From assembly GCA_021774875.1 (NCBI GenBank), contig JAJFIP010000252.1:1-40166 (forward strand): a stretch of 40,166 nt of DNA, read 5' to 3'. A model generated the notes under the pieces. It was not told the origin of the DNA, did not search any database, and worked only from the letters and a program-made list of their open reading frames with translations. The stretch's first letter is position 1; each line of letters begins with the position of its first letter. The position numbers and the translations under genes were made by a program. Of this stretch, positions 16,742 to 37,045 are shown piece after piece. Source of the stretch: Emcibacter sp. (GTDB taxonomy: Bacteria > Pseudomonadota > Alphaproteobacteria > Sphingomonadales > Emcibacteraceae).

Positions 16742-17170
16742 ATGAATATGGATTATAGTCTGAAAAATATTGAAGAAAATACCCTTATAGAAGCTCGGCT
16801 TACAGGGCCTGTCAGAAATGATGACTGGGTCGGTTTCTTTGATATGATCGCTCACAAGATTGAAAATACCAAACGGCTGTATATGCTGATCGATGAAAAT
16901 AAATTTGAAAATGACATCAATTATGAAACAGCCCGCGCCCTGTTAAAGAAAGCATCCAACGTCCCTATTAAAGAGTTTATCATCAGTTTTTCCACTTCAG
17001 ATCCTCTGAAAGTGCATGTGGAAAAATTATTCCGGGCCATGGCAAAAATAGCCGACGTTCCCCTTGCCATCAGTTATCGTCTTTCTCTGGCTGAAGCCCG
17101 AAATGTCATCACAAGCCTGTGTCTGTCCTGCTATACAAAAATGTCCTCAATAGTGAAAAATAAATCCTAG
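16742..17170 (+). CDS. SpoIIAA/STAS-like small protein
   Basis: This 142-residue soluble protein has no signal peptide or membrane segment. The pattern of alternating strands and helices (TLIEARLTGPV, KRLYMLIDENKFEN, IKEFIISFSTSDPLKVHVEKLFRAMAKIA) resembles the SpoIIAA-like STAS fold, but this is a weak assignment by eye. An AAGGAG lies some 12 bases before the ATG at 16742; an ATG at 16748 is also possible. It follows feoB by 105 bases without an obvious terminator. Its stop codon overlaps that of the convergent iorB in a shared CTAG. Function is unknown. Confidence 0.7.
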   Translation: MNMDYSLKNIEENTLIEARLTGPVRNDDWVGFFDMIAHKIENTKRLYMLIDENKFENDINYETARALLKKASNVPIKEFIISFSTSDPLKVHVEKLFRAMAKIADVPLAISYRLSLAEARNVITSLCLSCYTKMSSIVKNKS

Positions 17171-34094: not shown

Positions 34095-36614
34095 ATGCAG
34101 GAAAAAGAATTAAGATTAGCTTTGGTCTGTTTTGGCGGGGTTTCGCTTGCCGTATATATCCATGGAACCTCCAAGGAAATTCTGAAACTGGTCCGTGCAT
34201 CCAAGGCCTTTCACAATGACCCTGATATCCATGCCGCCAGCCGGAAAAAATATATTTATCCCAATGAACATCTGCTCGATAAGGCGGATACGGAACTGGT
34301 TTATTTTGACATTCTGAAAGCACTGTCCCCCGAACTGGAACTCCGGGTAATCGTTGATGTTATCGCCGGAGCATCTGCGGGCGGCATGAATAGTATTTTT
34401 CTGGGTCGGGCCGTGGCCCATGATCTGAGCATGGATCACCTGCGCGATCATTGGCTGGAAGAAGCAGATGTCAGTCGTCTGGTCGGCCAGAAAAAACCCG
34501 CCGGAACGTTGGACAAAATGCTTTCCAAGCCCATTGTAAATTACTTGAGCCGTAAATATCTCGGCGATACGGCACTGGCCGATCAGGTACAAAATAAACT
34601 CCCGGCCCTGATGAATATCTGGAAATTAAAGCCGCCCTTTGATGGTAAACATTTTCTGGGACTGATGTATAAGGGACTAAACGCCATGGGTAAGATCAAG
34701 GGCCATTCCCTGATGCCTTATGGCCATCGGCTTGATCTTTATGTCACAGTTACCGACTATTATGGCTTTCGGCGCGTGATCCCGCTCAATGATCCCCCAT
34801 ACATTCATGAACGAGAGCATCGCCATAATCTTCATTTTTCCTATCTTAACAAGAAGAACAGTAATGCTGCTGAAAACAACAACCCCGATAACAATATTGA
34901 AACAGATTTTGAGTATTTTGACATTCCGGCATTAAGCTTTGCCGCCCGGGCCACATCAAGTTATCCCGGGGCTTTCCCGCCAGCACAGCTTAGGGAAATG
35001 GACAATTTTTTAAAAGATCTTGATAAAAGCTGGGTTAGAAAAGACGACTTTTTAAAGAGAAATTTTTCAGAATATGAAAAATCCGGCCTTGACCCCATGC
35101 TGACATCTTTTCTTGACGGCAGTATTCTCAATAACAAGCCCTTTGATCAGGCGATTTCGGCCATTCAAGGACGGGCGGCCTTCAGGGAAGTGGACAGACG
35201 GATTATCTATGTTGATCCCAACCCGGAACGGCTGATTATCCCGCCGACTGGGGCGCCACCCTCTTTACTTAATACCATCAAGGGCGCCATGTCCAATATT
35301 CCCATGAATGAGCCAATGCATGATGATCTGACCGATATTCAGGTCTATAACCAGCAAATCAGAACCATTAAAACCGTGATCGACCATGCCAAACCTGAGA
35401 TAGAGGAACTGGTGGCTGAGATTTCCGGCAAGACCCTGGATACCATAACAGATGCGGGGCAAATCACTTATCTGCGTATCATAGCCAATGTAAAATCCGT
35501 AACCGGGGCCGGGTTTTCTTATGGTGGCTACGCACGACTGAAAGTGCGCAACACGGTTGCCGCCCTGACCAATCTGATCGCCGATATTTGTGGCTTTAAC
35601 CCCGGCAGCCGTCGGCGAAGACGGTTATTTTGTGTGCTGCATCATCTGGCTTTCAGGGATAAATTTGATTTTTCCGCTTATTCTGAAAGGATGGAAAAAC
35701 ATAACCAGTCAAAACTAATGGGCTGGGTTAAGGGGCTAATGCAAAAAAATGGCCGGGCTGACCCCTTGCCCTCATGGGGCTATTTCCTGACTAAATTTGA
35801 TATTAAATATCAGCGACGCCGTCTGCTGTTTGTCATTAAAGACCTCAACACCCATTATTCTCATCACCCTCAGGATGCGCGGAAACTGGATCAGCTGAAA
35901 CGATCACTTTATGATATTCTGGAAGATGTCAGTAATTGTGCCAACCCGGATACCATTCCGCCCAAGGTTAAAGAGGCCCTGCTGCGCGCCTTTTGCCCGG
36001 TAGCAGAACTTGATATTGATGATGATATGCCAGAGACTATGATTGGGGAAATGCTGAAAGATCATATGACGGGTCTGAATTCCGCCCTGGACGGTCTGGC
36101 GAAAATTCTGCATCTTGATCATTATAAATACGCTGCTGACAAGCTTATTGCCGACCAATATAACATTAACTGGGAAAGCGGGCTTACCAAGAGTCTGGCC
36201 ATCAGCTATATCGGGTTTTCCTTTTGGGACGTGACAACATTTTCCATAATGGGCTCAAAAGAGCTCGGTGAATTCAACGAAGTAAAAGTCAACCGCATCA
36301 GCCCCAAAGATACTTCGGTACTGCGCAGGAAAAGCGATGACATGCCGCTTCATGGCATTGCAATGGCCGGATTTGGGGCTTTTTTCAGTCGCAAAGATCG
36401 GGAGAATGATTATCTCTGGGGAAGAATGAACAGCGCAGAACGGCTAATTGACCTGCTTTATAATCAGGCCCAGATTTCCGGTCTGGATCATAAGCTGGAT
36501 GTGGTTGCTCTGAAAAAACGCGCCTTCCTGACCATATTGGATGTGGAAGAAAAACACTTGAACGAAATCCCCGGCCTATTCACCGAGCTGCGCGAAAAAG
36601 TTAGCAAGCTCTAG
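34095..36614 (+). CDS. Large patatin-like phospholipase (DUF3376 type)
   Basis: This 839-residue protein carries a patatin hydrolase domain at its N-terminus. It has an oxyanion-loop-like CFGGVSLAVYIHG at 11-23, the nucleophile elbow GASAGG with Ser94, and the catalytic Asp in LDGSI (Asp341). The Ser-Asp dyad is thus complete. The long C-terminal part (about 380-839) is mostly helical and matches the DUF3376-bearing patatins of actinobacteria and proteobacteria. No signal peptide or clear membrane segment is seen. It probably acts on lipids at the inner face of the membrane. Its TAG stop is the first three bases of the palindromic element that follows. Confidence 0.88.
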   Translation: MQEKELRLALVCFGGVSLAVYIHGTSKEILKLVRASKAFHNDPDIHAASRKKYIYPNEHLLDKADTELVYFDILKALSPELELRVIVDVIAGASAGGMNSIFLGRAVAHDLSMDHLRDHWLEEADVSRLVGQKKPAGTLDKMLSKPIVNYLSRKYLGDTALADQVQNKLPALMNIWKLKPPFDGKHFLGLMYKGLNAMGKIKGHSLMPYGHRLDLYVTVTDYYGFRRVIPLNDPPYIHEREHRHNLHFSYLNKKNSNAAENNNPDNNIETDFEYFDIPALSFAARATSSYPGAFPPAQLREMDNFLKDLDKSWVRKDDFLKRNFSEYEKSGLDPMLTSFLDGSILNNKPFDQAISAIQGRAAFREVDRRIIYVDPNPERLIIPPTGAPPSLLNTIKGAMSNIPMNEPMHDDLTDIQVYNQQIRTIKTVIDHAKPEIEELVAEISGKTLDTITDAGQITYLRIIANVKSVTGAGFSYGGYARLKVRNTVAALTNLIADICGFNPGSRRRRRLFCVLHHLAFRDKFDFSAYSERMEKHNQSKLMGWVKGLMQKNGRADPLPSWGYFLTKFDIKYQRRRLLFVIKDLNTHYSHHPQDARKLDQLKRSLYDILEDVSNCANPDTIPPKVKEALLRAFCPVAELDIDDDMPETMIGEMLKDHMTGLNSALDGLAKILHLDHYKYAADKLIADQYNINWESGLTKSLAISYIGFSFWDVTTFSIMGSKELGEFNEVKVNRISPKDTSVLRRKSDDMPLHGIAMAGFGAFFSRKDRENDYLWGRMNSAERLIDLLYNQAQISGLDHKLDVVALKKRAFLTILDVEEKHLNEIPGLFTELREKVSKL

Positions 36615-36715
36615 AATATTCTGCGTTTAATCGTGGCAAGGCAGCCGAGGCGAAGTGTACATGAGTACATGAGACGAAGTCTACCGCTGTCCACGGTTGA
36701 AGGCAGAATATTCTA
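36612..36715. repeat. Long inverted-repeat element between convergent patatin and sufA genes
   Basis: Perfect 13-base arms, TAGAATATTCTGC (36612-36624) and its complement (36703-36715), bound the element. The pairing continues inward for 12 positions with two wobbles and one mismatch. The core holds the direct repeats GAGGCGAAGT (36647-36656) and GAGACGAAGT (36671-36680). Between them is a tandem octamer (GTACATGA twice) that can form a TGTAC-ATGA-GTACA hairpin. The two arms provide the TAG stops of patatin (plus strand) and sufA (minus strand). It may act as a two-way terminator or mRNA 3' stabiliser. Confidence 0.75.
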
Positions 36716-37045
36716 AACGCTGAAACTTTCCCCGCAACCGCAACTGCCTTTTGCGTTGGGGTTTGTGAAAATGAACCCGCTTTGAAATTTCTCATTTCGG
36801 TAGTCCATCTCGCTGCCGAGCAAGTAAATCAGCGACATGGCATCCACATATAGGGTGATGCCTTTATCCTCTATTTTTTCATCAGCAGGATTAACATCGT
36901 CCACATAATCCACCGTATAAGACAGACCATTGCAGCCTTTGGTCGATGTGCCGAGCCGAACCCCGTGACAGGCCTTGCCCCGGCTATGCAATATTTCCCT
37001 GATCCGGTCTGCGGCGGCATCGGTTATGGTAATTACCCTGTCCAT
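36713..37045 (-). CDS. sufA: HesB/IscA-family iron-sulfur cluster assembly protein (SufA)
   Basis: This A-type carrier accepts iron-sulfur clusters from the Suf scaffold and passes them to target proteins. The 110 residues contain the three conserved cysteines: Cys38 in TSTKGCNGLSY, and Cys102 and Cys104 in the C-terminal GSCGCGESFSV. It is the last gene of the suf operon, two bases after sufT. Its TAG stop lies in the arm of the inverted-repeat element shared with the convergent patatin gene. Confidence 0.94.
   Translation of the reverse strand: MDRVITITDAAADRIREILHSRGKACHGVRLGTSTKGCNGLSYTVDYVDDVNPADEKIEDKGITLYVDAMSLIYLLGSEMDYRNEKFQSGFIFTNPNAKGSCGCGESFSV

Follow-up and report, generated by a model that had tools for sequence, protein, structure and literature searches.

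The 104-nt near-palindrome that separates a patatin-like phospholipase gene from a convergent sufA-like gene in the window, a stretch of 40,166 nucleotides from Emcibacter sp., is a 100-bp insertion flanked by a duplicated TA dinucleotide. With a probability of about 0.82, it represents an old copy of a miniature inverted-repeat transposable element (MITE), non-autonomous and directed to TA, that inserted where the stop codons of two convergent genes overlapped. Each of the present stop codons is chimeric, the TA stemming from the target and the G from the end of the element. Empty orthologous sites, the TA duplication, the protein ends and homologous copies elsewhere support the steps of this insertion.

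Structure of the element and its flanking genes

The patatin-like gene (34095-36614, plus strand; an ORF of 839 aa; Pfam Patatin, E 4.9e-12, and DUF3376, E 3.7e-17) ends at the element border with the TAG at 36612-36614, and the facing sufA-like Fe-S biosynthesis gene (36713-37045, minus strand; an ORF of 110 aa; Pfam Fe-S_biosyn, E 5.9e-22) ends at the opposite border, where CTA at 36713-36715 is its TAG. The near-palindrome (36612-36715) comprises the MITE-like palindromic element proper (36614-36713), delineated by its hairpin, empty orthologous sites, a second genomic copy and copies in sister species, and the two TA duplicates, of which the left one (36612-36613) constitutes bases 1-2 of the patatin stop and the right one (36714-36715) bases 1-2 of the sufA stop on the minus strand. 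Its terminal inverted repeat consists of a left arm, TAGAATATTCTGCGTTTAATCGTGG (36612-36636, plus strand), and a right arm identified by complementarity, TAGAATATTCTGCCTTCAACCGTGG on the minus strand (36691-36715). In between lies a conserved hairpin core, TGGCAAGGCAG...ACCGCTGTCCA (36634-36693, plus strand), which measures 56 nt from TGGC to CGCTG. The sole listed ORF over the element encodes 64 aa and runs antisense to the end of the patatin gene.

A first-pass annotation of this DNA had correctly recognised that the outermost TAG of both arms provides the stops of the two genes, but had given the arms 13 bases, while they extend over 25 nt each and are 88% complementary. The internal features it described are present as well, namely a 10-base direct repeat (GAGGCGAAGT at 36647-36656 and GAGACGAAGT at 36671-36680, 24 apart), a tandem GTACATGA at 36657-36672, which forms the apex stem TGTAC-ATGA-GTACA, and the self-complementary AGAATATTCT found in each arm. 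The spaced GAGNCGAAGT pair (24 apart) is unique in the window's genome, and the GTACATGA tandem is not kept as a tandem in other copies of the element.

Insertion at a TA shared by two stop codons

The sufA/patatin junction was compared in 12 other genomes of the genus, none of which carries the full element there. In four of them the stops have one TA in common within a 4-nt overlap, which is TTAG in G004 (empty site GTTTAGAG) and TTAA in G014, G009 and G012 (empty site GTTTAAAG). In G013, a 36-nt spacer at the orthologous junction folds into a short hairpin whose two arms carry matching changes. In the remaining genomes the stops lie 2-19 bp apart, among them G001 with 7 bp (also L020), a distance read by eye because the contig ends within the partner frame. 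The element is taken as 100 bp plus a duplicated TA because joining the window flanks at one TA yields GTTTAGAGCTT, which matches the empty site of G004, GTTTAGAGTTT.

SufA ends in ESF(S/H/T)V or ESFHI and the patatin partner in a KL, NL or RL dipeptide at an unchanged position, in either case with or without the element. Since the proteins are the same without the repeat, the element trimmed neither of them and merely regenerates pre-existing stops; trimming of patatin or SufA, which the earlier annotation had raised for comparison with orthologues, is rejected, given that the protein ends are alike across the genus. Its proposal that the element supplies both stop codons holds only for the terminal G, which completes each TAG; the TA comes from the target, where the stops existed prior to insertion.

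In the proposed course of events, sufA and the patatin gene would originally have converged with stops overlapping by 4 nt and a single TA (YTAR) in common. A 100-bp palindromic element would then have inserted at the shared TA and duplicated it, and the G (A in some copies) adjoining the duplicated TA at both ends would have created TA+G on each strand. With a purine next to TA at both ends, the stops would therefore have been kept at the same codon and the proteins left unchanged.

Further copies and their placement

A second copy in the window's genome (C33:1397-1492) is 83% identical, and further copies reside in G001 (L032, L040), G004 (L033) and G013 (L016, L034), amounting to six independent sites (window, C33, L032, the L033/L040 junction, L016 and L034), with 75-83% identity of the cores at unrelated junctions. 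The suggestion of a repeat family inserted exactly at gene ends thus gains substance from six sites, TA duplication and empty sites in relatives. As evidence against its own proposal, the first-pass annotation had named the lack of further copies together with element-free junctions that retain the same protein ends; copies do exist, whereas the protein ends are indeed retained. A covariance model (R1) run against 196 genomes of the order gave strong matches confined to this genus and weak matches in one genome of another family. Several candidate matches were discarded: weak ones in the window's genome (L006-L009) have no arms, one in G015 (L017) lies within coding sequence and was taken as coincidence, and none of 66 pattern matches in IMG/VR has paired arms, so that these were attributed to chance and viral carriage was rejected. 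Plasmid-borne spread was likewise rejected, as blastn against PLSDB returned no match.

The second junction with empty counterparts is that of L033 (G004) and L040 (G001), which is empty and stop-sharing in the window's genome (CCCTAAAAGGGCC) and in G011 (GCCTAAAACGGCC). When flanks are joined, one TA is common to both converging stops at four of the six sites (window, L032, L033/L040 and L016). The origin as a MITE is somewhat weakened by the fact that the empty states at two of these four, L032 and L016, derive from the flanks alone and were not seen in orthologues, and by the two other sites: the C33 copy, located 0-3 bp from the stops of the convergent genes on its two sides, has an imperfect duplication (TA/TG), and the L034 copy borders one stop only.

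In a 400-kb sample of G013, with genes called as simple long ORFs, shared-stop TA sites number 5 among 22,021 TA, 3,757 non-coding TA and 810 non-coding YTAR. Against non-coding YTAR from this sample, the probability of at least four shared-stop sites among six is ~2e-8, and that of three among five, with the window copy excluded, is 2e-6. Convergent genes of the genus are in general very tightly packed. In the background samples, comprising the 400 kb of G013 and 230 kb of the window's genome, about 9% of the convergent pairs share a TA in a 4-nt overlap (5/55 and 2/22; L136-L155, and L156-L175 plus the window). One such pair lies in the window itself, where stops overlap on CTAG at 17167-17170 and no element is present, constituting a natural empty target.

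Related MITEs and a possible mobilising element

The pattern TAGARYATTCTGCG exceeds its reversed control in G010 (34 vs 2), G006 (15 vs 1) and G008 (9 vs 1), and is not clearly enriched in the window's genome (6 vs 2). In G010 this pattern identifies a palindromic MITE of 264 bp, whose ends measure 33 bp and whose copies are 93-98% identical. This MITE resembles the element in its terminal repeat (TAGAGCATTCTGCGCTTAGATACGG..., related to the left arm), its CTAR target and its TA duplication, but is longer, mostly unlike in its interior, and present in more and younger copies. The young copies target CTAG or CTAA at ordinary intergenic CTAR sites and not at shared stops. G010 additionally contains 107-bp derivatives, whose end units of 16 bp are arranged in tandem, as well as solo ends located at the 3' termini of genes. 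At L079:625-811 and L035:411-613 the 107-bp palindromic derivative is followed by 6-7 tandem 16-bp TAGAGCATTCTGCGCT units, which are copies of the element's own end. Solo MITE ends of ~25 nt occur at gene 3' ends in G006, G008 and G010 (L060/L077, L070/L095, L083, L085, L088/L094), and several of them provide the stop or the final codons of the gene.

An IS630-type IS in G008 (L125:928-2050) with a split transposase frame is bounded by TAGAGCGGTTTCG ends and is inserted on the CTAG at which the upstream gene stops. The IS630 family (DDE_3 transposase) shares the TA target and, in G008, a location on a CTAG stop; on the other hand, the ends of this IS match the related MITE ends clearly at the outermost TAGAGC only, and no autonomous partner with ends matching beyond TAGAGC was present among the DDE_3 transposase loci scanned in the genus. 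The case for IS630 as the mobilising partner is suggestive only. The absence of a matching partner among these loci speaks against an origin as a MITE, as does the mere pair of copies in the window's genome.

Assignment to the TA-ended bacterial MITEs

A known class of TA-ended bacterial MITEs, 100-200 bp in size and giving rise to long hairpin transcripts, includes Correia/NEMIS, RUP and ERIC (PMC2229807, PMC2649163). The element is assigned to this class as a new member, because its size, ends, TA duplication and hairpin fit: it is 100 bp long, within the class limit of ~300 bp, has no coding capacity, carries terminal inverted repeats, shows TA duplication relative to empty sites at two junctions, and occurs in dispersed copies, albeit in low number (two in the window's genome, more in three sister genomes, six sites). 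In the portions of the literature on TA-ended bacterial MITEs that were covered, neither its sequence family nor the genus nor the stop-sharing placement is described.

Among the known systems, the Correia elements of Neisseria (NEMIS, CREE) share a short class of 104-108 bp, terminal inverted repeats, TA target duplication and long hairpin transcripts, which are cut or bound by RNase III in the Correia case (PMC2649163, PMC2229807). Their terminal repeats are unlike by eye (TAGAATATTCTGCG-type in this element), and their reported copy number of ~100-250 contrasts with two in the window's genome. When the core was aligned to a Correia sequence, 0/500 shuffles reached the score of the family consensus, but 50/500 that of the window copy. 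RUP of Streptococcus pneumoniae, ERIC and RPE are likewise small, with TA termini, inverted repeats and long stem-loop transcripts (Table 1 of PMC2229807), and IS630-Spn1 has been proposed as mobiliser of RUP (PMC2229807); unlike in the present element, stop codons shared by convergent genes are not described as their placement in the relevant parts of PMC2229807. Integron attC sites were considered on account of CTAACGC-like motifs and set aside, since the R/L boxes lie elsewhere than at the ends.

A hairpin core shared between MITE types

The core TGGCnAGGCA...TAACGCTGyCCA also occurs inside two other TA-flanked MITE types of ~266 bp with different terminal repeats, the first in G012, G014 and G009 with TAGGGTCTGTGGACAATTA ends (TAGGGTCTGTGGACA ends), the second in G067 with TAGAGCATA ends. 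The spacing from TGGC to CGCTG is 56 nt in all three, and when the family consensus core was locally aligned with either of the other two types, 0/500 shuffles reached the score. Loci of these core-bearing MITEs are L038:1472-1739, L041, L042, L043, L036, L044, L037, L045:590-855 and L046:215-479. The recurrence of the core across MITEs with different terminal repeats is unexpected and the least explained part of the findings. It could, though this is improbable, be a functional module common to MITEs with TAGARYATTCTGCG or TAGGGTCTGTGGACA ends and kept since the transcribed hairpin is useful. At overlapping converging stops, the module would on this view have been co-opted as a 3'-end element for both directions, its arms drifting freely under a pairing constraint.

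Pairing constraint and the role of the hairpin

The whole 104 nt fold as a single hairpin of -55.2 kcal/mol with short flanks (z = -6.4 on the plus strand, with 0/200 shuffles as low, and z = -5.7 on the minus strand). Across six copies, nine two-sided pair changes, all in the outer stem, compare with 3.1 in shuffles, and 5' arms form 17.0 of 19 pairs with their own 3' arm vs 14.3 with those of other copies. Arms thus differ between copies while pairing stays, even at one junction, where the arms of G001 (L040) and G004 (L033) differ and yet each pairs.

Such maintained pairing fits selection at the RNA level. Arm-to-arm template correction or transposase recognition could, however, leave an equal trace. 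On neither strand is the hairpin followed by a U-tract, the 3' flanks lack T runs beside the stem, and a scan of both strands found no terminator-like site at the element. A canonical intrinsic (Rho-independent) bidirectional terminator, defined by a GC-rich hairpin and a subsequent U-tract, is therefore rejected, as is a known Rfam family, given that covariance models yielded no match at E up to 1 over 36400-36900.

An insertion at this site would be harmless to both genes, and both messages would carry the hairpin at their 3' ends. Old copies may persist because the hairpin gives two genes without a spacer a common 3'-end element, which could hinder exonucleases, serve as a substrate of RNase III, or aid Rho-dependent or hairpin-assisted termination. 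Judged from the maintained pairing, the 36-nt hairpin derivative in G013 and the siting, such a shared 3'-end role is tentative, its odds somewhat short of even. The two-way terminator suggested by the first-pass annotation, or another 3'-end role, is plausible in view of conserved arm pairing and the retention of copies between convergent genes, and terminator roles of MITEs are considered conceivable in a recent review (PMC10969869). Relatives that dispense with the element, their stops overlapping or 2-19 bp apart, count against any need for such a terminator.

Alternative explanations

A MITE copy could equally lack any function, insertions elsewhere having been purged and pairing having been kept by palindrome-templated mutation instead of selection. 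MITEs are generally non-coding passengers, and template switching corrects quasi-palindromes towards perfect pairing; the young 264-bp copies of G010, which are not at shared stops, agree with this. The bias towards shared stops is nevertheless strong even against non-coding YTAR, and the differing but paired arms of G001 and G004 at one junction are not readily accommodated, leaving this explanation with a substantial minority share of the probability. It is rather unlikely that the placement reflects target choice instead of retention, with a transposase or hairpin substrate favouring the ends of convergent genes or CTAR in particular flanks: the four of six sites on a shared TA, the G008 IS630-type IS on a stop codon and the CTAG or CTAA targets of young MITEs would agree, but young 264-bp copies with related ends occupy ordinary intergenic CTAR sites. 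It is very improbable, and disfavoured as the origin of the element, that selection shaped it at the junction primarily as a bidirectional terminator or mRNA 3'-end structure, with copies alike through common function, since the long hairpin on both strands between convergent genes, the compensatory arm changes and the short hairpin kept in G013 are outweighed by core homology at unrelated junctions, TA duplications, empty sites, larger MITEs with related ends, the missing U-tract and the many convergent pairs of the genus within 10 bp that have no such hairpin.

Implications

Insertion of a MITE at overlapping stops would provide a concrete route for transposons into a compact genome without harm to either neighbour, in that a TA-targeting element with a purine beside the TA regenerates the stops on both strands upon landing in overlapping convergent stop codons. 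Moreover, the genus offers a natural series of empty overlap, full 100-bp element and 36-nt remnant hairpin, which would allow the effect of a hairpin on convergent 3' ends to be measured.
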